From: a virus
Reading direction: 5' to 3' (one strand)
DNA length: 64,000 nucleotides
Virus record (IMG/VR): IMGVR_UViG_3300047325_000181
Location: 1 to 64,000 of that record
Both the position numbers and the translations under genes were made by a program. This document shows, in pieces, positions 4,815 to 51,720 of this stretch (positions are counted from its first letter, which is position 1; each line of letters starts with the position of its first letter). The notes under the pieces are model-generated. The model was not told the origin of the DNA. It searched no databases and was given only the letters and a program-made list of their open reading frames with translations.

Positions 4815-6269
4815 TCACAGTGCGTCCTTGAAGGGCATGCGCACCTCGCCGGTCTCAGGGTCGGCACCGTCAGCCTCGGCGGCTCGGCGGTGCTCCTCCT
4901 GGACCTCGCGGGCGAACCAGGACCTGCGGCCGTCGAGCGCCTCGTACCACGTCAGATGCTCGCCGACGAACTCCATTTGGACCGAGCCTGTTTTACCGTC
5001 ACGCACCTTACCGACGATGAGCGCGGCGCGCGTCGGCGGGATGACGTCGCCCGAGTCGTCTTTCTTGTCCGGGTCGTTGTCGGGGTTCGCTCGCCAGGGG
5101 AAGATGATGGTCGTCGCGTGACCCTCGGCATTCCCGCCGTCGCGTAAGTGGAACATGCTCGGCTTTTTGTCGGCCGCGGCCCGGTTCATGTGGAAAACGA
5201 CGTGCATTGCGCACTTCAATTCGGCGCTGAGCGAGACGAGGTCCATGAGCACCGAGTCGAGCACTGCATGCTTGTTGCCCTTAACCCCGGCGTCCACAAG
5301 GTCGCCGATGAATCCGATGTGGTCGATGTGGATAGCTGAGACGCCGGTCCGCGTCGCGGCGAGACGCGCCGCGAGCTTGATTTCGTGAAGCGTCATCCGC
5401 GGCGAGCGGTCAAAGAACTGGATAGGGAGCGGTTCGAGATGCGCCTGCGCTCGGTCAAGGAATGTCCGCTCGGTGACGGTCAGCGAGTCGGCCATTCGGA
5501 ACTTGCCGACCGGCACCCCGGAGACCATCGAGAGAATGCGCTCCGACGTCGCGGCCTCGCCCATTTCGAGCGCGAAGAAGAGCACCTTCCCGTGGCTCGC
5601 GCCATACTTGACGGCGTTGTAGTGGGCGAGATTGATTTGCGTGATGCTCTTGCCCATCCCGGGAGCCGCTGCCCATAGCACAAGCTCCCCCGGCTTAAAA
5701 CCACCCGTCAGCCGGTCAAGCGACGGCCACGGGGTCATAAAGGGCTTCGACGTCCGTGGGTGGTCGATAGCGTATCGGACGCCACGCAGCACCTCGATGT
5801 GCTCGTGCCCCTCGATGCTCTTGCGGACCCCGGCTCCGCCGAGAACCTGCTGCGTGGCCCAATCCGCGAGCGCGGTGGAGTCGACGAACCGTTCGGTCAT
5901 CGCCGCCTCGTGAAGCTGACGGCCGACCGCGGCGAGCCGCCGGGAAGCGGCCTTATCCGCCACGATGCGAGCGTAGTATTCCGCGGTCGTGCTCGTCGGG
6001 ACGACGTCCATGAGGCTCGTCAGATATGCGATGCCCTCGGCTCCAAACTTCGGGTCCTTGCGCATCTCTTCGGCAACGGTGATTTTGTCGAGCGGCGCTC
6101 CGGCGTCAGCGAGCTTGCACATCACGAGCCAGAGCTTCTCGTGGCTCGGCGAGTAAAAGTCGCTCGGCTTGAGCAACGGCGCGACGACGTCCCACATCGA
6201 GCGGTCAATCATCACGCAGCCGAGGGTCGCCTGTTCAGCTTCGAGGGAGTGCGGCGGGATGTCGGTCAT
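4815..6269 (-). CDS. dnaB: replicative DNA helicase, DnaB family
   Basis: A 484-residue DnaB-type helicase that should unwind DNA ahead of the phage fork. It has the N-terminal DnaB domain (residues 1-100, with LEAEQATLGCVM), a linker, and a RecA-like core with Walker A APGMGKS at about 202-208, a Walker B-like segment IHIDHIG at about 313-319, and a downstream FHMNR arginine/histidine segment. The length is normal for the family. The start overlaps the end of the DUF1376 gene (ATGA), a common pairing of phage loader/initiator and helicase. Confidence 0.93.
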   Translation of the reverse strand: MTDIPPHSLEAEQATLGCVMIDRSMWDVVAPLLKPSDFYSPSHEKLWLVMCKLADAGAPLDKITVAEEMRKDPKFGAEGIAYLTSLMDVVPTSTTAEYYARIVADKAASRRLAAVGRQLHEAAMTERFVDSTALADWATQQVLGGAGVRKSIEGHEHIEVLRGVRYAIDHPRTSKPFMTPWPSLDRLTGGFKPGELVLWAAAPGMGKSITQINLAHYNAVKYGASHGKVLFFALEMGEAATSERILSMVSGVPVGKFRMADSLTVTERTFLDRAQAHLEPLPIQFFDRSPRMTLHEIKLAARLAATRTGVSAIHIDHIGFIGDLVDAGVKGNKHAVLDSVLMDLVSLSAELKCAMHVVFHMNRAAADKKPSMFHLRDGGNAEGHATTIIFPWRANPDNDPDKKDDSGDVIPPTRAALIVGKVRDGKTGSVQMEFVGEHLTWYEALDGRRSWFAREVQEEHRRAAEADGADPETGEVRMPFKDAL

Positions 6270-7171
6270 ATTCCGGTGTCCCGGCTTTCGTAGGTTGCGA
6301 CCGTGGTCGGTACGAGCGTCATGTCAGTGGTCCCTCCTGGTTTCTTGCGAGGCGGCAGGGCGAGCTTAACGAGTTCGTCCTGGATGATTTTGAGCATGTA
6401 CGGCGCCTGTCCAAGTCGCTCTGAGGCGCTTGCGAAGGCGACGAGGATTTCGTCGTCGGTCCTCCCGAGCGCGGCAAGGTCGCGAGCGGCGGCCTTATTG
6501 CGCTGACCCCACTGGGTTCGGGTCATGCCTCGGCCGACGACGGTCTGCACCTTCGGCCAGAGAAGGGCGAGGATGTCCCGTGCTCGCTGCTCCGTCGGGT
6601 CCGGCAACTTCAGAACCGTCGGCTCGCGCTGCCTGGACGAAACGGCCAGGCTAGAGACGCTAGTCTCTAGCTCTATAGAAGACGAAGATGAAGTAGAAGA
6701 CGAAGAGTTAACATTTGGCTTAACCGACGCTATAGGCGTCGCTAGTGGCGTCGCTAGTGGCACCGCTTCGGTTTCGCTAGTAGCGCCGCTAGTGGCGACG
6801 CTTCTTTTCCCTCGTGCGGCGGCGCCTTTCTTGCCGTTTTCGCTTTGGGCGCGCTTATAGGCGATTTGTTGGGCGCGCGTCTCTTCTTGGCGACGGTTGA
6901 CCAAACGGGTGGCATCGCTTGGGTGTTCGATGAAGCACCGCTTAAGCGACGCCCATAGCGGTGCCATCTCTTCGCTAGTGGCGCCGACTAAGCGGGCGCA
7001 ACGCTCGGCGTCGTTCGGTATCGAACCCTTTTTCCAAGAATGACAAAGAAGCCGGATATAAGCGCCGCTCTCGGCGAGGCTCATCTCGGCTTGGTCGGAG
7101 TCACTCAGGTAGTCACCGGCGTAGAATTGGAACGCGGGACCCCACTCCGTATCGGCACTTTCAGATGACAA
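6266..7171 (-). CDS. DUF1376 (YdaU-like) replication protein
   Basis: The N-terminal 100 residues match the DUF1376/YdaU pattern (FYAGDYLSDS, LAESGAYIRLLCHSW, IPNDAERCARLVGA). A disordered serine/threonine-rich linker (residues about 120-185) leads to a C-terminal helical domain. Such proteins sit beside phage helicases and are thought to take part in initiation or helicase loading. The start is TTG at 7169-7171 with AAAGAGG upstream. The start is well separated from the upstream erf operon by a hairpin at 7257-7287. Confidence 0.8.
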   Translation of the reverse strand: MSSESADTEWGPAFQFYAGDYLSDSDQAEMSLAESGAYIRLLCHSWKKGSIPNDAERCARLVGATSEEMAPLWASLKRCFIEHPSDATRLVNRRQEETRAQQIAYKRAQSENGKKGAAARGKRSVATSGATSETEAVPLATPLATPIASVKPNVNSSSSTSSSSSIELETSVSSLAVSSRQREPTVLKLPDPTEQRARDILALLWPKVQTVVGRGMTRTQWGQRNKAAARDLAALGRTDDEILVAFASASERLGQAPYMLKIIQDELVKLALPPRKKPGGTTDMTLVPTTVATYESRDTGI

Positions 7172-44473: not shown

Positions 44474-46483
44474 TCACATGCGGCCCTTTTTCCGCTTCTT
44501 GTCCGAAACGTAGCCCTTGGGGGCGCCGGTCGCAGTAAAGCCCTTGCGGTGCGCTTCGGCCAGGTCCTCGGCGGTCGAGGTGGGTGACTCTTTGTAGTCG
44601 ATGGGGAGCCCGGCTTCTTTCGCGGCGAGGGCGAACTCCTTGAGACCGGGCGCGATGCGCGCGACCTTGTCGTGCGTCGAGTTGAGTTGCTCCTCGGGGA
44701 CCGTACGCTCGCGGTCGGCGTTGCGCATATGCGCCACTTCCCGCGGGGCCTGGGCCTCGTTGAACTCGACGTCGTAGCCGTTGGCCATCGCCTGCTGGGC
44801 CCAGTCTTTGTAGCTGTCCGAGCCGGTCGAATCGTAGACGAAGCTGCCGTGGTCGGGGTTGCGGATGGCGTTCTTGAGGCGCTCCTTAACGACGTGCGAG
44901 GAAATCTCGTGCGTCAGGCCGCCGCCGAAATCTTCGCCCTTGCCGTCTTCGTTGCGCGGCTTTCCGGCCAGCGGGTGGTCTTTGCCGTACGGCTCTTTGA
45001 TGACGTTATTGGCGAAATCGCGCGCGTCACGGAAGCCGGTCGCGCGCTGAATGTAGGCGTCGAGCGCGGCCCGCTCTTCCTCGGGGTACGCCTCAAGCTC
45101 TTTCCAACTCTTCGGACCGCTTGGTCCGTAGCGGCCTGCATGGAGTGGGCCCGTGCTCCCGCTCGGATGCTTGCCCTCCTCGTGGGAGAACATCGGGTTG
45201 TTCTTCTTTTCCGCGTCCGAATCGAAAACGGGCGCGTCCTTGAAACCCGGCTGATACGCCTTGAACTTCTCGTGGCCGGGTCCGATGATTTCCTTCGTGT
45301 AGGTCCCGTCGCCGTTGTCGCGATGATGCGTCTTGCCTTCGTTCCCGGTATAGTCTTCGACCACGCCGCCCTTACCGACGCCGCCGCCGCCAATCATAAA
45401 GACGGCCTTGCGGCGCAGGGTCGAGGAGGGCGGGAGAAAGCCTTGGCGCTTGCGGTCCGAGACCGCAGCATCGTGGTCGACCGCGCCCGTCTCGGGGTTC
45501 GTATGCTCGTCTTCGATGCGCTCGCGGTCGGTCTGCGGCTTCTGCGCAGCCTTCGCCTTGGCGCCGTGCTCGTGCTTCTCGGCCAGCGCCGCGGCAGCAC
45601 CGTGCGGCGTCTTGAAATGCCCGAGGAACTCTTTCTTGCCGTTATGGGCGACCGAACGAGCCTGGTGCGCGTCCTTGGTCTGCTTGATTTCGCCGACCTG
45701 GGCGTCGCCCTGATGGACGGAGTGGCCGTCCTTCTGCGGACGAACTTCGTAGTGCGACCCGGCCTTCGTTTTCACGGAGCCTTTGCCCGAGGAGGGGTCG
45801 ATGCTCGCCGTCGAGCCGCCGACCGAGACGAACTGACCGTTCTCCGAGGAGTGCTCGTGACCGGACTCGTCTTTGACTTTGACCAAATCGCCTAGTTTCA
45901 CGCTTGCCCACTTCTCCGATTCCGGCCGCGCGTCGAGCATCTCTTGGAGCTTCTGATTATGCGCGTCGATTTCGGCATGCTGTTCCGCGGACATCGGCTT
46001 CGTACCGTCTTTCGTGTACTTCGCCTGAAGCCGGTGAATCATGTCGCGGTGGCTTTTGATGTCGTCCTTGCTGCTGGAGACGCCGGAGCCGCCGGACGTG
46101 AACTTGCCGTCCGGGTCGCGGGCTTGGTCTGACTTCTTCACTTTTGGCTTACTGCGCCAGATTGACTTGGCTTCTGGTTCCGGTTTCTTGGCGTAGAACG
46201 AGCCGACTTCTGCCTCAGCCTTGTCTTTGTGAGCATCGCACGACATAACGCGGGCTCCGTCGCGATAGTCAGCCTCAGCGTGAGAGGTGATGTGGGCCGA
46301 CTTTTCCCCGCAATACTTACATTTGCCATAAGAGTGCGGCCTCGTCTTGACGCCCATCGAGTAGGAATCGGAGACGCGCTCACCTTGCACCCCCCAGCCG
46401 GACGTAAACTTGCCGTCCGCGTCACGAGACTGGTCTTTGATGAGGTCTCCGAGCTTCACGGCTTTCTCCTTATTTTGAGGCAC
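44474..46483 (-). CDS. large modular protein with P-loop (zeta-toxin-like) kinase domain, 669 aa
   Basis: N-terminal 225 residues hold three copies of a KLGDLxK...DxxGxFxSxG motif (about 10-30, 117-132, 195-222) with a zinc cluster C55-x2-C58...C82 between. A P-loop GGGGVGKG at about 365-372 begins a domain resembling phage-borne zeta-toxin kinases, which phosphorylate UDP-sugars or related substrates; the C-terminus is helical and basic. The repeats may dock onto a virion partner, as the gene lies among head genes. Kinase function is inferred from the P-loop and context. Confidence 0.6.
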   Translation of the reverse strand: MPQNKEKAVKLGDLIKDQSRDADGKFTSGWGVQGERVSDSYSMGVKTRPHSYGKCKYCGEKSAHITSHAEADYRDGARVMSCDAHKDKAEAEVGSFYAKKPEPEAKSIWRSKPKVKKSDQARDPDGKFTSGGSGVSSSKDDIKSHRDMIHRLQAKYTKDGTKPMSAEQHAEIDAHNQKLQEMLDARPESEKWASVKLGDLVKVKDESGHEHSSENGQFVSVGGSTASIDPSSGKGSVKTKAGSHYEVRPQKDGHSVHQGDAQVGEIKQTKDAHQARSVAHNGKKEFLGHFKTPHGAAAALAEKHEHGAKAKAAQKPQTDRERIEDEHTNPETGAVDHDAAVSDRKRQGFLPPSSTLRRKAVFMIGGGGVGKGGVVEDYTGNEGKTHHRDNGDGTYTKEIIGPGHEKFKAYQPGFKDAPVFDSDAEKKNNPMFSHEEGKHPSGSTGPLHAGRYGPSGPKSWKELEAYPEEERAALDAYIQRATGFRDARDFANNVIKEPYGKDHPLAGKPRNEDGKGEDFGGGLTHEISSHVVKERLKNAIRNPDHGSFVYDSTGSDSYKDWAQQAMANGYDVEFNEAQAPREVAHMRNADRERTVPEEQLNSTHDKVARIAPGLKEFALAAKEAGLPIDYKESPTSTAEDLAEAHRKGFTATGAPKGYVSDKKRKKGRM

Positions 46484-46516
46484 ATCTCGTCCTCCTGGGC
46501 TCGCTTGAGGTTCGCG

Positions 46517-47047
46517 TCAGGCGCGCGAAGTCCTCAAGGCCAGGCGCTCGCAGACGAAGCTATTGTCTTCCTCGACCACGAGGTCGATGACCATGCTCTC
46601 GACGGTCTCGTACTTGAAGTCGTCGCGCGCGACGCGCCCTTCGAGATTCGAGGCGAAGAGGATGCGGCCGAAGAGCGCCGCCGGGGCGAGCCCGAGCACG
46701 ATTTGGGGCGCGGCGGTCGTAATCACCATCCCGGCCGGGCGCTTTTCGAGCGTTACCGAGCGGCGCTCGGCTTCGGACCAGTCCGATTCGAGAACGGCGC
46801 TGACCCCGTCGTAGGGGCCGAGATTCTTGAGACGCTGGAAAGTCGAGGCCCAGTTCTGAGCGGCCCAGGTCCCCTGGAGAACGGTCAGCGCCCCGAGCAG
46901 CATGCAATCGCCAGTGTAAACCGCGGCCCCGATGCGCGTCACGCGCCGGAAGCGGGCGCGGTGCGTCAGGACCAGTTCGCCGACGGCCACGTACTCAATC
47001 GGGACGAGACCGCGCTGCGTGACGACGCGGCAACCGACGGCGACCAC
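46517..47047 (-). CDS. free-standing Hint-domain (intein-like) protein, 176 aa
   Basis: GTG start directly after the gp7-like gene. Residues 6-50 align with the start of the upstream intein (CRVVTQRGLVPIE, VGELVLTHRARFRRV), and its end (VIDLVVEEDNSFVCERLAL) with intein block F. The initiator Met falls where inteins have Cys1/Ser1, and the terminal His-Asn is replaced by LALRTSRA, so it should not splice. It may be a decayed intein or a Hint protein with another use. No other family was seen. Confidence 0.65.
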   Translation of the reverse strand: MVAVGCRVVTQRGLVPIEYVAVGELVLTHRARFRRVTRIGAAVYTGDCMLLGALTVLQGTWAAQNWASTFQRLKNLGPYDGVSAVLESDWSEAERRSVTLEKRPAGMVITTAAPQIVLGLAPAALFGRILFASNLEGRVARDDFKYETVESMVIDLVVEEDNSFVCERLALRTSRA

Positions 47048-48817
47048 TTACGTGGGCTCGTAGGGAAGCCAGACGCACCGGCAGTTGTGAACCGCAATTC
47101 CTTCCACGATAAACGAAGCGTCGCGCTCGACTTGCAAGCAAACGACATCGCCTCCGTAAAGGGATTGTGATATACTTGACTCGTGCTCTCTAAGGACGAG
47201 GTTGCCACACTTTACGCCAAGCACATCGCTGACGGCTTCAGCGTAAAGGAGCTTGCTCGCGACATCGGACGCAGTCGCGCCTATTTGGTTGCGCAATTCG
47301 AGCGCTACGGCCTGAAGCAACGCGGCATCGCCGACTCGAATCGAGTGACGCGAAAGCGACTCAAACACGCCCTCACCCTTCAAAGTAAGGGCTCTATGAC
47401 GGTTCTCGAAAAGCTGATGCACGACGCGCTCGTAGCTTTGGGAGAGAGCCCGGTTTCTCAATACGCTGTCGAGTACCTGAATATCGATGTCGCCATACCT
47501 GACGCTTTGGTGGCTATAGAGATTGATGGAGGGGGCTGGCACGGAAGCGACCCCCGGAAAAAGACTCAGGACGCGAACAAGCAGGCGCTGCTCCAGTCGC
47601 GCGGCTGGGCCATTGTGCGCATTTGGAGCATTGGGAAGCGCTTTCGCAAGCGCTTCCCAGCCTATGCCGAGGACATTGTCGCCCTTGCCAATCTCCGTCG
47701 GCAAACGCCACCCGTCGCGCGTCAGAACGGCGTGGTCGCCCGTTATCCGCGCCCCGCCGATGTCGAAGATAGAGCCCGAATGCTTACGGCGAGACGTCGC
47801 AAGTACCCGCGCAAACCGTCCATGATGGGTAAGCACGTACTGACCTGGACTGACCGACCCGATGCGCTGGAGCCCATCGGGAGTGATGACGCGACAATCT
47901 TCCGTGACTGACCTGGGATGCAGCGGGATGACCGGGAGATAGTCGTCGACCTTACGGCCGTAGTTCGACTCGCCGATGATGTCCTTGATGCGCCGGGCCT
48001 TGTCGTTGATGAGGCGCAGGCAGTGGTCGCAAACGCGCGAGTCGTGCGCGCTCGACCCGATACACCACTCGAAACCTTGGTCGAGCAGTTCCTGGAGGCG
48101 TCCCTGGCTCTCGGCTCTGGCTGTCTCCGTGATGGCGATAGTTCCGAAATCGAGGTTGTAGTTGCGCGTCGTGTTCGCCATCGCGCGAGCCACCTCGCGC
48201 GGATTCTTGCCGAGCGCCGCGGCGCCGATAAGCTGCTGGCGAAGCTCGGACTTCATTTCCTCGAACTTGCTGTCTAGCTCGTTGAATGTATTGTGTTCGA
48301 GGAACTCGATGGCTCGCCGGTCCTCCGCCGTCACGGGCCGGTGCAGCACGGCGCGGCCGACGTTCGGCGCCGGGCGGTTTTCGCGGCGCGCGCTCGCCAA
48401 GCGGTGGTTGATGGCCGCCTCGGTCGCGAGCATCTGGCCGATGAGGTACGCCTGCATCGGGTGCGAGGCAAGCTCGACCATCGCTTTGGCCTTCCAGTCC
48501 TCGACGGACTGGTCAATCGTGTACGGGTCGAGCCCTTCCCACGTCCCGCCGGTCTTCTCGTAAAGCTGGTCGACAAGCTCGCGAAGCTGGCGCGCGAGGT
48601 CGGGCTGGCCTGCGATGAGCGCCCGGTACACCTTGTCTTCGTGCGCGCCGATGGGGCGGATACCGTGGTCCCCGGGGTCGCCCGGATGCCAGTCGCGCTT
48701 CTCTAGTTCGTAGTTCCAGTGCTTTTGCAGAACGCCGAGGGCAGCGTCCGGCGCGGCGCCCTTGCGAACGGCCAACTGCGCTAAATCGAACTCGACTTCG
48801 AGGACCGTCTTATCCAT
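47048..48817 (-). CDS. minor head protein (SPP1 gp7/Mu F-like) interrupted by an intein
   Basis: A 589-codon frame. Residues 1-302 and 579-589 are the head protein: FGTIAITETARAESQGRLQE, CIGSSAHDSRVCDHCLRLIN and the closing HPR|CRCVW motif of the gp7/Mu F family, which acts in head assembly and DNA ejection. Residues 303-578 are an intein: Ser1-VTEDC-RVITPDG (block A), ITGDHAVLTRDGW (block B), CLQVERDASFIVEGIAVHN (blocks F/G, His-Asn end), and Cys +1. Splicing would give a protein of 313 residues. Part of the intein frame is antisense to a homing endonuclease gene. Confidence 0.88.
   Translation of the reverse strand: MDKTVLEVEFDLAQLAVRKGAAPDAALGVLQKHWNYELEKRDWHPGDPGDHGIRPIGAHEDKVYRALIAGQPDLARQLRELVDQLYEKTGGTWEGLDPYTIDQSVEDWKAKAMVELASHPMQAYLIGQMLATEAAINHRLASARRENRPAPNVGRAVLHRPVTAEDRRAIEFLEHNTFNELDSKFEEMKSELRQQLIGAAALGKNPREVARAMANTTRNYNLDFGTIAITETARAESQGRLQELLDQGFEWCIGSSAHDSRVCDHCLRLINDKARRIKDIIGESNYGRKVDDYLPVIPLHPRSVTEDCRVITPDGLQRIGSVSPGQYVLTHHGRFARVLATSRRKHSGSIFDIGGARITGDHAVLTRDGWRLPTEIGKGDNVLGIGWEALAKALPNAPNAHNGPAARLEQRLLVRVLSLFPGVASVPAPSINLYSHQSVRYGDIDIQVLDSVLRNRALSQSYERVVHQLFENRHRALTLKGEGVFESLSRHSIRVGDAALLQAVALELRNQIGATASDVASKLLYAEAVSDVLGVKCGNLVLREHESSISQSLYGGDVVCLQVERDASFIVEGIAVHNCRCVWLPYEPT
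47171..47176 (+). promoter_or_regulatory. extended -10 promoter for the antisense endonuclease
   Basis: TGA-TATACT on the plus strand, six bases before the GTG at 47183; predicts a leaderless mRNA transcribed against the head operon. No good -35. Confidence 0.5.
47183..47911 (+). CDS. Vsr/DUF559-like homing endonuclease encoded antisense inside the intein
   Basis: A 242-residue protein: N-terminal helix-turn-helix (SVKELARDIGRSRAYLVAQF, residues about 19-38), linker, then a PD-(D/E)xK/Vsr-like nuclease core (NIDVAIPDALVAIEIDGGGWH, then KQALLQSRGWAIVRIWS) at about 95-150. The last 65 residues are antisense to the intein's N-terminal splicing blocks and may be non-essential. The stop TGA at 47909-47911 is the complement of the intein's Ser1 codon, so the gene lies wholly inside the mobile unit. 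GTG start, leaderless. It is expected to cut the empty head gene and drive homing. Confidence 0.8.
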   Translation: MLSKDEVATLYAKHIADGFSVKELARDIGRSRAYLVAQFERYGLKQRGIADSNRVTRKRLKHALTLQSKGSMTVLEKLMHDALVALGESPVSQYAVEYLNIDVAIPDALVAIEIDGGGWHGSDPRKKTQDANKQALLQSRGWAIVRIWSIGKRFRKRFPAYAEDIVALANLRRQTPPVARQNGVVARYPRPADVEDRARMLTARRRKYPRKPSMMGKHVLTWTDRPDALEPIGSDDATIFRD

Positions 48818-48844
48818 CTGTGACTTCTATCATACAACGAAAGA

Positions 48845-48869
48845 GCCGTGACCTGTTCGGCCACGGCTC
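48845..48869 (-). terminator. hairpin before the gp7-like gene
   Basis: A 10-bp stem with one G-U pair and five-base loop, followed by CTTTCG on the minus strand. It probably ends or slows transcription after the gene at 48912-49364. Confidence 0.55.
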
Positions 48870-48911
48870 CCACGAATCGAGTGCTGGAGCGAGTTGCGCT
48901 GGCACCCGAAG

Positions 48912-49364
48912 CTACATCGTCAGCGAGGGCGTTCCGGTGCTCGCATCGTGGAAGAGCTTCGTGTTCGTCGGGTCGACCGCGTAGACCGAAGCGCCGACCG
49001 TGAACGTGATGTTCGAGGAGCCGACGATGAGTTCGACCGTGTCGCCCTGGTTCGCCTTGATACGCTTGCGCGGGATGCGCACGGCGTTGGCGGCGATGCC
49101 GAGACCGCTTTCGAGCGGGTTCGTCGAGGAGGGGCCGCCCTGCGCGATGACCGACGCCTCGCTCGCGGTGTCGATGATGTCGTAGAAGAACTCGCAGACT
49201 TGGTCGACCGAAGCCGCGCCGGTCGAAGCGCCCGAGTCGAGCGCCGAGGTCACGGGGTTGACCAGAACCTTGAAGTTGACGTTCGTCGCATTCGTCTGGG
49301 CCGTCCCGTCCTGCGTGACGGCGCCCGTCGCGGGCGTGAAATGATAGGCGTGATTGACGGGCAT
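48912..49364 (-). CDS. hypothetical head-region beta protein, 150 aa
   Basis: Beta-rich small protein (NVNFKVLVNPVTSALDSG, DTVELIVGSSNITFTVGAS) between portal and gp7-like genes. The short strands and GS-rich turns suit a capsid decoration or stabilising protein. No family recognised. Confidence 0.55.
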   Translation of the reverse strand: MPVNHAYHFTPATGAVTQDGTAQTNATNVNFKVLVNPVTSALDSGASTGAASVDQVCEFFYDIIDTASEASVIAQGGPSSTNPLESGLGIAANAVRIPRKRIKANQGDTVELIVGSSNITFTVGASVYAVDPTNTKLFHDASTGTPSLTM

Positions 49365-49373
49365 CGAACTCTC

Positions 49374-51188
49374 CTAGTCCAGCAGCTTAACGAGGTCGTC
49401 GCGGAGCGATTCGAGGTCTGCTTTCTGAACCCCGCTGCCCGGAACCTGGGGCTTGGGCGGATGCGGCGGCTTCGGCGGCTCCGCGTCGCCGCCACCCACC
49501 CACACACCGCCGCCTTCCCCGTCCTCGCCGGGCGCCCCACCCTCGCCGCCGCCGTCTTCTTGCGGTTGGAGCGCGGGCAAGTCTTCGAGCTTGATGCCGG
49601 GCTTGGTCGCAATCGTGATGATGTCGCCGCCGGGCATCGGGGGCAGGCCGAGTTCGCGCCGGACCTCGTTGCGCGCGAGAATACCCGAATCAACCAGGGA
49701 AACGGCGCGCTGCGCGTCCTCAACGCTCTGCTCTTTATTGTCTTCGACGAACTCGAACTTGACATCGTTGAACGGGAAGATAGCTTTCGAGTAGCCGGAG
49801 AGGTCGAGCGGGTCGAGCGCGTTGTTCCGAATCCACATCTGGCCGCGGACGATTTCGCCGTTGATGAACTCCTGAATCGTGACCGCGAGCGAGTGGATGC
49901 CGCGGGACTGGGTCAGGTCCTTCTGCGTGTCGGCCGTCGTGCGGTGGAGGTCCTCGGTAAACCCGATGTCTTGGAGGGAGAGGCCGTAGACGGCGCACTT
50001 GACGTTCGCCCAGTATTTCATCAATTCGAGGACTTCGTTGTCGCGCATCGTCCCGGTCTGGAGCGGGATGAAGCCCTTGACGCCTTCCTTCGAGCCGATG
50101 AAGATGCCGCGCCGGATGCCCTTGGCGACCGACTGGTTCCACTTCATCTCGATAGCGTCGCGCTCGTCCTGACTCACTTCGGGGCCGAGGTCGAAGACGA
50201 ATTGCGGGGTGTTGTTGTTGCGGAAGAAGTCGACCATGTACTGGTCGCCGTAGAGCGCGCCGACCATCTTCTCCAGGATGACCTCGACCGGCGGCTTCCC
50301 GTAGCCGGTGCTCTGCTCGTTCTGGAGCATGTAGACGAGTTCGTCGTTGTTGTAGTACGCCTTAACGATGCCTTGGTCGTACCAATCGTAGGCCGGTTCG
50401 GGCGGCTGGGGCGTGGCGAGGTCGGGACGCCGGTAGCGCCGGACTTGGTCGCCCGGCAAGAGGTAGAGTTCGCCGAGCGCGGAGCCGTCGCAGAGCGGAT
50501 TCTTCACGATGGGCGCCGCGTCGTAGAGCGTCAGGTTGTCGACGATGCGGTTCAGGAAGGCCCGGAAGCTCGACTCGGCCGAGGGGTTCGGGCTCTCGAA
50601 CATCTCCTGGACCGGCAGGATGTGCGACTCGGCCGTCACCTCATGCGCGGCGAGGCAGTTCTCGAAGAACTCGCGCAGCCGGACGTTCTGGGAGATGTCG
50701 CTTCCGGCCGACTGCTCGGAGGAGATGACGTCGCGCAGCGCCCCGGAGGCGCGCATGAAGAAGACCGGGTCGAGCACCTGCGGCGTGAACTTCGCCTGTA
50801 ACTGCGGGTAATTCATCGTCAATTCGGAGACGGTGTGCCAGCGCTTGAGTTCGGCTTTCACCTTCTCGACGTCGGGGACGATTTTCCACTTCATCTCGCC
50901 GATGGCGCGCTTGAGCGTGTTGCGAATCGCGAAGATGATGTCGTCGCGGTCGGCCAACTGTTCGAGCGTGTAGCCCGGGATAGCGTAGCGCGAGCGCTGG
51001 ATAAGGTTCTCGCGCGTGTCCTTCGTCGACTCGGGGCGCATGAGCGACCCGCCGAGCGTCTTCGGGTCGTTGCCCTTGCGGGGCGAGACGCGCTCGGGGC
51101 CGAGGAACAAACGGCTGAATCGCCCCGGGTTCCGACGCTGCGGCGGGCGGTTTGGGCCGAGCGGGACGAGCGAATGCATCTCGGACAT
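49374..51188 (-). CDS. portal protein
   Basis: A 604-residue portal: N-terminal region, ELTMNYPQLQAKFTPQ, clip/stem region with DNLTLYDAAPIVKNPL, GELYLLPGDQVRRYRRPD, then VEVILEKMVGALYGDQYMVDFF and a helix with RTTADTQKDLTQSRGIHSLA, all typical of phage portals; proline/glycine-rich C-terminus. It forms the dodecameric ring for DNA packaging. The start at 51188 lacks a clear ribosome-binding site; an in-frame ATG at 51240 is the alternative. Confidence 0.8.
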   Translation of the reverse strand: MSEMHSLVPLGPNRPPQRRNPGRFSRLFLGPERVSPRKGNDPKTLGGSLMRPESTKDTRENLIQRSRYAIPGYTLEQLADRDDIIFAIRNTLKRAIGEMKWKIVPDVEKVKAELKRWHTVSELTMNYPQLQAKFTPQVLDPVFFMRASGALRDVISSEQSAGSDISQNVRLREFFENCLAAHEVTAESHILPVQEMFESPNPSAESSFRAFLNRIVDNLTLYDAAPIVKNPLCDGSALGELYLLPGDQVRRYRRPDLATPQPPEPAYDWYDQGIVKAYYNNDELVYMLQNEQSTGYGKPPVEVILEKMVGALYGDQYMVDFFRNNNTPQFVFDLGPEVSQDERDAIEMKWNQSVAKGIRRGIFIGSKEGVKGFIPLQTGTMRDNEVLELMKYWANVKCAVYGLSLQDIGFTEDLHRTTADTQKDLTQSRGIHSLAVTIQEFINGEIVRGQMWIRNNALDPLDLSGYSKAIFPFNDVKFEFVEDNKEQSVEDAQRAVSLVDSGILARNEVRRELGLPPMPGGDIITIATKPGIKLEDLPALQPQEDGGGEGGAPGEDGEGGGVWVGGGDAEPPKPPHPPKPQVPGSGVQKADLESLRDDLVKLLD

Positions 51189-51263
51189 AGTCAACGCAGG
51201 AGGTTCGGCCGCCCGAGGGCAAACCCCCTCGCCCGGGGCCATGAAGTCATGGTCCGGGGACAA

Positions 51264-51301
51264 TAAAAAAAGACGCGATGACGGGTACGCCTGGCTCGCG
51301 T
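51264..51301 (-). terminator. intrinsic terminator upstream of the portal gene
   Basis: Minus strand: ACGCGA stem with TCGCGT and a run of seven T after CTT. It ends the accessory operon 51457-53259 before the virion operon. Confidence 0.7.
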
Positions 51302-51328
51302 TTTCTGCTTCTTTAGGGAGATTTTGAC

Positions 51329-51460
51329 ATGCCCGACAACGAGACCGCCGAGATGACGATGAGCCAGCCCGAACAAACGGAAACGCCGACCTGCTCCCTA
51401 CCGGACGGCGTCTACAACCCGGCCGTTCACGGCCCGAACTTTTGCCCGGACTGCGGCTAA
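51329..51460 (+). CDS. tiny acidic zinc-ribbon peptide, 43 aa
   Basis: AGGGAG seven bases before the ATG. Acidic, threonine-rich N-terminus and a C-terminal FCPDCG with an earlier C (TCSLPDG). It lies alone on the plus strand and overlaps the convergent gene by four bases. Function unknown. Confidence 0.5.
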   Translation: MPDNETAEMTMSQPEQTETPTCSLPDGVYNPAVHGPNFCPDCG

Positions 51461-51720
51461 ACGAAGAGCAGTTCGTCGGCCAGCTTGCGGAACGGCGTGA
51501 CCGCCGTCTTGCGCTCGTCGACCACGTAGAGCAACCCACTGCCGGTCGGATTGATGTCGAAGTCATCCACCGGCAGTTGCTTTTTCCGGGTCACGAGCCG
51601 GAGCGCATAGTTCTCGGTCGCGGCTGAGAGCGCGCGGAAGTCGTCCCAGGAGCGGACGAAGCGGAGGCGCAGGTTGGCCCAGGCCGTGGCCTGCGGCGGG
51701 GTGAGGTTCTCGGGCGGCAT
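51457..51720 (-). CDS. hypothetical protein, 87 aa
   Basis: Helix followed by a beta region (YALRLVTRKKQLPVDDFDIN, LLYVVDERKTAV). One-base overlap with the metalloprotease-like gene. Last gene before the terminator at 51264-51301. No family recognised. Confidence 0.6.
   Translation of the reverse strand: MPPENLTPPQATAWANLRLRFVRSWDDFRALSAATENYALRLVTRKKQLPVDDFDINPTGSGLLYVVDERKTAVTPFRKLADELLFV

Follow-up and report, generated by a model that had tools for sequence, protein, structure and literature searches.

A stand-alone Hint-fold protein without splicing residues, probably a domesticated intein domain, and neighbouring phage inteins with an antisense endonuclease frame

The window analysed here is a stretch of 64,000 nucleotides, corresponding to positions 1 to 64,000 of the 73,308-base IMG/VR virus record IMGVR_UViG_3300047325_000181. 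On its minus strand lie, in the direction of reading, the portal gene (49374-51566), a gene for a protein of 150 aa (48912-49364), the gene for a MuF-type minor head protein (47048-48817), an ORF of 176 aa starting with GTG (46517-47047), which is the subject of this report, and a gene for a protein of 669 aa (44474-46483), with a weak zeta-toxin/AAA_33 P-loop match. The MuF gene carries, within its HPR|CRC motif, an intein of 276 aa (47084-47911, minus strand), where all splicing residues are present: Ser1, TGDH, HN and Cys+1. This intein contains in turn an MTES_1575/DUF559/Vsr-like endonuclease ORF of 242 aa (47183-47911), located on the plus strand in codon-aligned antisense register.

As anticipated in a preliminary description of this DNA, the 176-aa ORF directly follows the intein-bearing gene: its GTG adjoins, and is in frame with, the stop codon of the MuF/intein gene (TAA, 47048-47050), the whole junction occupying 47045-47050 on the minus strand. 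PHROGs assigns no function to the ORF and NCBIfam has no match for it; a tRNA search of the window found none. The downstream P-loop protein and its relatives in four other lineages (L003, L026, L027 and L071, described below) are conserved, range from 538 to 674 aa, and feature a GGGGVGKGG P-loop-like motif, along with DADGKFTS-type repeats close to the N-terminus. A further repeat-containing ORF, with many near-identical AASGDNS(Q/K)L-type repeats, was observed at L086 5333-6226 (+).

When the ORF is aligned to the neighbouring intein, its start Met falls on Ser1, in agreement with the original placement of the start at intein position 1, and V8, G13 and VLTH are common to the two sequences. 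By blastp, the ORF matches its own neighbour intein with 37.4 bits (E 5.8e-8, in a database of one sequence), a second aligned piece covering block F; the best score obtained against 2,000 shuffled inteins is 24.3 bits. A profile of the five stand-alone members described below, compared by hhalign to a MuF-plus-intein profile, gives a probability of 98.6% (E 6e-16) over 87 columns, spanning block A, block B and the region that follows. Hint_2 is the sole Pfam family found at E<=0.1 and is present in all five members: the best match, to residues 4-44 of the window protein (E 5.4e-5), lies below the curated (gathering) cut-off. A PDB profile search with the stand-alone family returned 2lwy as the only match, with E 0.079.

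The Hint fold proposed for the ORF was also obtained by structure prediction. From an alignment of 26 rows (the five members and 21 inteins), AlphaFold predicts a Hint fold with pLDDT 81.3 and pTM 0.77, pLDDT falling below 50 at residues 103-120 only. Since inteins are included in the alignment and may bias the model toward a Hint fold, this evidence is not fully independent; with four members alone (4 rows, no inteins) the model is poor, with pLDDT 38.9. In a second look at the Foldseek PDB matches, the nearest solved chain to the 26-row model is a Hedgehog autoprocessing domain (Z 15.3, 2.5 A over 129 residues), followed by inteins, with Z of about 15. Bacterial intein-like (BIL) domains are also among the nearest folds, the BIL and Hedgehog entries 2lwy, 6tmm, 6y75, 1at0 and 6tyy sharing the predicted fold with Z between 13.7 and 15.3. 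A similar fold is predicted for two small phage proteins in BFVD, A0A8S5TV04 (128 aa) and A0A1S5RCV4 (143 aa): the likeness is one of predicted fold, with identities of 11% and 14%, respectively. By profile relationship and predicted horseshoe fold, the stand-alone ORF is assigned to the Hint superfamily.

The residues required for splicing are, for the most part, not retained. At position 1, the five members have M, M, M, S and S: the Met is found in the window and in two relatives, while in the other two members a Ser follows the initiator Met. The position of the block-B His is occupied by T, V, T, G and T, with no His in any member; in the window, the TxxH site (46868-46879, minus strand) reads L-Q-G-T, both Thr and His being gone. 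Block F is kept, as already noted in the preliminary description, and the loss of the C-terminal His-Asn reported there is evident from the alignment. Blocks F-G, at residues 150-173 (46529-46600, minus strand), carry Arg-Thr in its place, and the two positions are R-T, R-T, R-P, E-G and E-G in the five members, with no HN in any of them. The stand-alone proteins end a few residues past these positions, with no Cys, Ser or Thr following an HN motif. Cys6, whose conservation was to be checked, is present in two of the five members only. In a comparison set of ten inteins, in contrast, both the block-B His and HN are present in 10 out of 10, and the first residue is Cys or Ser in all ten when taken from the intein boundaries, the alignment being one column off in four of them. 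Because of the loss of these catalytic residues, splicing by the known route would be impossible for the stand-alone protein.

Nor does the family show the arrangement of other Hint-containing proteins. Inteins are inserted in frame in a host protein, while each of the five members has its own start and stop codons. BIL and Hedgehog domains, which form part of larger proteins, keep Cys1 and a catalytic His; the window protein stands alone and has neither residue, and the combination of nucleophile and catalytic His used for autocleavage is not found in the family. The closeness of the predicted fold to BIL and Hedgehog domains, together with the Ser found after Met in two members, could be taken to indicate an autoprocessing domain, still cleaving or modifying a partner through non-standard residues. 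Yet no N-extein, block-B His or C-terminal HN is available in any of the five members, and in three of them position 1 is the initiator Met itself: we regard this possibility as very unlikely.

Relatives of the stand-alone gene were found by scans of viral contigs, and are all metagenomic. The gene is present in six contigs, representing five distinct lineages including the window, with 32-60% identity to the latter: L003 (IMGVR_UViG_3300047325_000188, 57% identity), L026/L010 (3300047325_000220, 60%), L027 (3300029900_000024, 32-33%) and L071 (3300037200_000348, 33%), the sixth contig, L075 (3300050134_000047), being 99% identical to L071. When 46 Hint-matching loci were read through, three (L003, L010, L035) turned out to contain the stand-alone family; in the other 43, the Hint segment lies inside frames of 456 aa or more, and these were taken as inteins in place. 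The scanned bacterial and archaeal genome contigs contain no relative of either the Hint ORF or the MuF protein, and in annotated phage records nothing matches 80% of the Hint ORF, nor was anything found there for the L071 member.

The order MuF, Hint, P-loop gene is kept in all five lineages, with an extra short gene after MuF in L003 and L026. This short gene (L003 4707-4997, L026 5301-5612) is seen in these two lineages only and appears, by eye, membrane-protein-like. The distance between the upstream stop and the Hint start varies from -4 to +3 nt: 0 nt in the window, 3 nt in L003, 1 nt in L026, and a 4 nt overlap (ATGA) in L027 and L071, where the Met just precedes position 1. For L027 the longest ORF begins earlier, and the ATGA Met was chosen in agreement with the other members. 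The presence of Met at position 1 is not a by-product of the same-frame stop found in the window: in L003 and L026, where another gene lies upstream of the Hint gene, an ATG is still located at the same residue, intein position 1. The same layouts bear on a possible read-through of the TAA, by which the Hint ORF would be added to MuF as a C-terminal domain. The two ORFs of the window do share a frame and are separated by the TAA alone, but the intervening gene of L003 and L026, and the change of frame at the ATGA overlap of L027 and L071, lend no support to such a fusion, which is the least probable of the alternatives considered.

The search for the same pair of genes in other phages, proposed in the preliminary description, has a positive outcome for MuF and the Hint gene, adjacent or nearly so in all five lineages, but not for the intein: MuF contains an intein with an antisense nuclease in three lineages (window, L003, L027) and is intein-free in L026 and L071, where the Hint gene is still present. 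A role tied to the homing element, for instance in counteracting or assisting the MuF intein or its antisense endonuclease, would fit the three former lineages; the two latter, which keep the Hint gene in the absence of a MuF intein, make it improbable, if slightly less so than the other alternatives. In the L071 virus another Hint segment was observed elsewhere, in a 936-aa frame (G004:C1:37108-37380, +).

Substitutions by codon position follow the order third, first, second in all ten pairs formed by the five lineages, and whole-gene pN/pS, computed for four pairs, is 0.59, 0.66, 0.48 and 0.53. As judged from these values, the constraint acting on the stand-alone gene is purifying, but moderate. 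It is not evenly spread: in three of the four pairs, the N-terminal half, which is the most intein-like part, is less constrained than a conserved middle element, located at residues 89-143 (46619-46783, minus strand). This element occupies the site of the intein endonuclease/linker and has no family match.

The origin of the gene was analyzed by a tree of 36 Hint domains: the 5 stand-alone proteins, 10 inteins of mostly head-type genes and 21 other phage inteins. These 21 were what remained of 32 other screened loci, after setting aside 11 with no C-terminal end, nearly duplicated or already included in the head-type set. All five stand-alone proteins fall into a single clade (UFBoot 100), set on a long branch apart from all inteins, while the intein of the window clusters with its MuF counterparts in L027 and L003 (91). 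The separate clade and the lineages with an intein-free MuF indicate that the Hint gene was not copied from its present neighbour intein. The gene is likely to derive from some intein by an old event and to have been inherited vertically since, as suggested by these sequence comparisons, although the tree does not single out the source.

The preliminary description had considered duplication of the adjacent intein, followed by either repurposing or decay. Duplication of the neighbour finds no support, because of the separate clade and of the intein-free MuF of L026 and L071; decay is contradicted by a gene which is open and conserved in five lineages, with substitutions at third positions. Repurposing, conversely, is in line with this conservation, with the coding-type substitutions, and with a predicted Hint fold devoid of catalytic residues. 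A pseudogene, that is a recent duplicate of the neighbour intein on its way to decay, might have been suspected from the window alone, where all splicing residues are gone and the ORF lies directly beside the intein-bearing gene. Recent duplication and decay were both rejected on the grounds of conservation, tree and intein-free relatives, and we give the pseudogene only a small chance, a little above that of an autoprocessing domain.

We are fairly confident that ORF 46517-47047 is a domesticated intein Hint domain, now a separate gene, kept as a non-catalytic protein. The Hint splicing domain of some intein would have become a separate gene by gaining a start codon, placed on or just ahead of intein position 1, and would have lost the block-B His, the terminal His-Asn and, in the window, the nucleophile. 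The junction with MuF and the constant location within the head module point to a protein produced together with MuF, possibly by translational re-initiation, and acting by binding. It is probably a head-assembly accessory, as its context indicates, most likely of the MuF/portal-proximal head module and possibly in combination with the P-loop protein encoded downstream. The Hint fold may have been reused as a scaffold: the lower pN/pS of the middle element in three of four pairs, along with its lack of a known relative, makes residues 89-143 the likely seat of the new function. The protein still shares fold, blocks A and F, and N-terminal boundary with the inteins that these phages carry in MuF, from which it differs by being free-standing and by lacking the block-B His, HN and, in the window, the nucleophile. 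Yeast HO endonuclease is a domesticated, intein-derived free-standing protein where the endonuclease is kept; in the stand-alone Hint protein, in contrast, no endonuclease part was found.

The intein adjacent to the stand-alone gene has a feature of its own, the endonuclease frame on the opposite strand. In the window, the antisense ORF matches MTES_1575 with 46.5 bits, above the cut-off of 38.2 (E 4e-12), and with 48.5 bits in the genome search. The same layout is present in the inteins of L003, L027, L029 and L032. Among cultured phages, the head-gene inteins of Vibrio phages 1.265.O and 1.266.O contain an antisense nuclease, gp5 of Gordonia phage Malisha an antisense ORF with a weak match (MTES_1575, E 0.003), and Gordonia phage Nordenberg an antisense ORF matching phrog_5046, 'HNH endonuclease' (E 3.6e-15), with no Pfam family at E<=0.01; by eye only, the latter looks LAGLIDADG-like. 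None of these genes is annotated in the records of the four phages. For all nine pairs with positions assigned from coordinates, the antisense ORF is entirely internal to the intein, in codon-aligned register; L041 is a tenth case, identified by its stop-free run. The ORFs are located at window 47183-47911 (+), L003 3773-4585 (-), L027 4836-5702 (+), L029 4878-5729 (+), L032 4827-5588 (+), L073 2928-3878 (+), L005 5145-5885 (-), L006 4100-4837 (-), L007 4088-4798 (-) and L041 5184-5903 (-), each start being taken as the earliest start codon, with the true one possibly further downstream. As indicated by their matches, the ten ORFs belong to at least two nuclease families.

Some ends of the two frames coincide: in the window, the TGA stop of the nuclease (47909-47911) is the complement of the intein Ser1 codon TCA, and in L027, L029, L073 and L007 the first possible antisense start is the complement of the penultimate His codon. 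A head-type host gene is supported for the window, L029, L032, L005, L006, L066 and L073, by annotation for L007, and by 58% and 41% identity to the window for L003 and L027, respectively; for L041 no head-type support was found. A scan of 46400-49000 revealed no sigma-70-like site, and no promoter is therefore proposed for the antisense gene. From its position only, the antisense ORF may be taken as a homing endonuclease, which would cut an intein-free MuF allele and drive copying of the intein.

The antisense arrangement was compared to 20 other inteins. A profile built from six nucleases finds nine of the ten antisense frames, including four not in the profile (L073, L041, L005 and L006 were outside it); in the 20 other inteins, it detects no antisense frame, but two in the sense direction (L066, L013). 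The longest open run on the antisense strand covers 0.75-0.96 of the intein in the ten cases, and 0.53 or less in 19 of the 20 others, L039 reaching 0.77. In all seven nuclease pairs, most substitutions fall on the third position of the nuclease, corresponding to the first of the intein; all seven also show, in the middle part, a higher conservation of the nuclease frame than of the intein frame. At the C-terminal end of the nuclease, opposite the N-terminal half of the Hint domain, it is the intein frame that is better conserved, in five of the seven pairs. The pattern suggests that conservation serves the nuclease in the core and, at least in part, the intein at the end.

Openness was further evaluated by synonymous recoding, with 2,000 trials per intein. 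The observed antisense openness is reached in a fraction of trials of 0.04 for the window, 0.03 for L003, 0.06 for L029, 0.24 for L032, 0.17 for L073 and 0.27 for L007, and in none of the 2,000 for L027, L005, L006 and L041. Taken alone, openness is weak evidence in GC-rich phages, and is clearly beyond chance in four phages only. As to ascertainment, L027, L029, L032 and L073 were first found by nuclease search, and L005, L006, L007 and L041 by Hint or MuF similarity. Counter-examples are also available: at L066 4161-7031 (+), where the host matches Phage_Mu_F, the DUF559 nuclease is in the sense frame, and at L004 3861-7685 (+) two inteins within one gene both contain sense DUF559 nucleases. 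A relative of the antisense nucleases, L030 4389-5291 (+), is convergent with an intein-free gene, MuF-like by eye (5254-6522, -), and overlaps its 3' end.

Two reported systems resemble this arrangement in part. The excerpted text of PMC11855218 describes the ShiLan hidden HNH, an endonuclease encoded in another frame of a phage methylase insertion: there, the frame is on the same strand and no splicing domain is present, while the antisense nuclease lies on the opposite strand, inside a real intein, in a head gene. According to PMC9548176, group I introns of rDNA may carry homing endonuclease genes antisense to the host gene. Introns are removed as RNA, whereas an intein has to remain translatable as protein, and both strands are therefore coding in the inteins described here. 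The excerpts of PMC3229294, PMC8966425 and PMC3556154 describe neither an antisense frame within an intein nor a dead free-standing Hint protein, and neither is recognisable in the titles and abstracts of the literature searched; a 2025 preprint on non-canonical intein architecture in an actinobacteriophage, cited in the excerpted text of PMC11855218, may overlap with the antisense part.

Taken together, we see a slightly better than even chance that a dead intein has become here a non-enzymatic phage protein standing alone, probably a factor in head assembly, and is the neighbour of a recurrent class of dual-coding inteins, found mostly in head-protein genes of unrelated phages, with opposite-strand endonucleases of at least two families in codon register. 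A Hint family that is free-standing, splicing-dead and constrained as coding sequence would clearly exemplify the conversion of a selfish protein element into a non-catalytic viral part. The antisense nuclease is more surprising than the stand-alone gene, and possibly more unusual: it assigns either partner of a mobile intein to a strand of its own, each constraining the sequence of the other, and nuclease expression and evolution can thereby be separated from splicing. The layout may be tested now, since it is carried by the cultured Gordonia phages Malisha and Nordenberg and Vibrio phages 1.265.O and 1.266.O.
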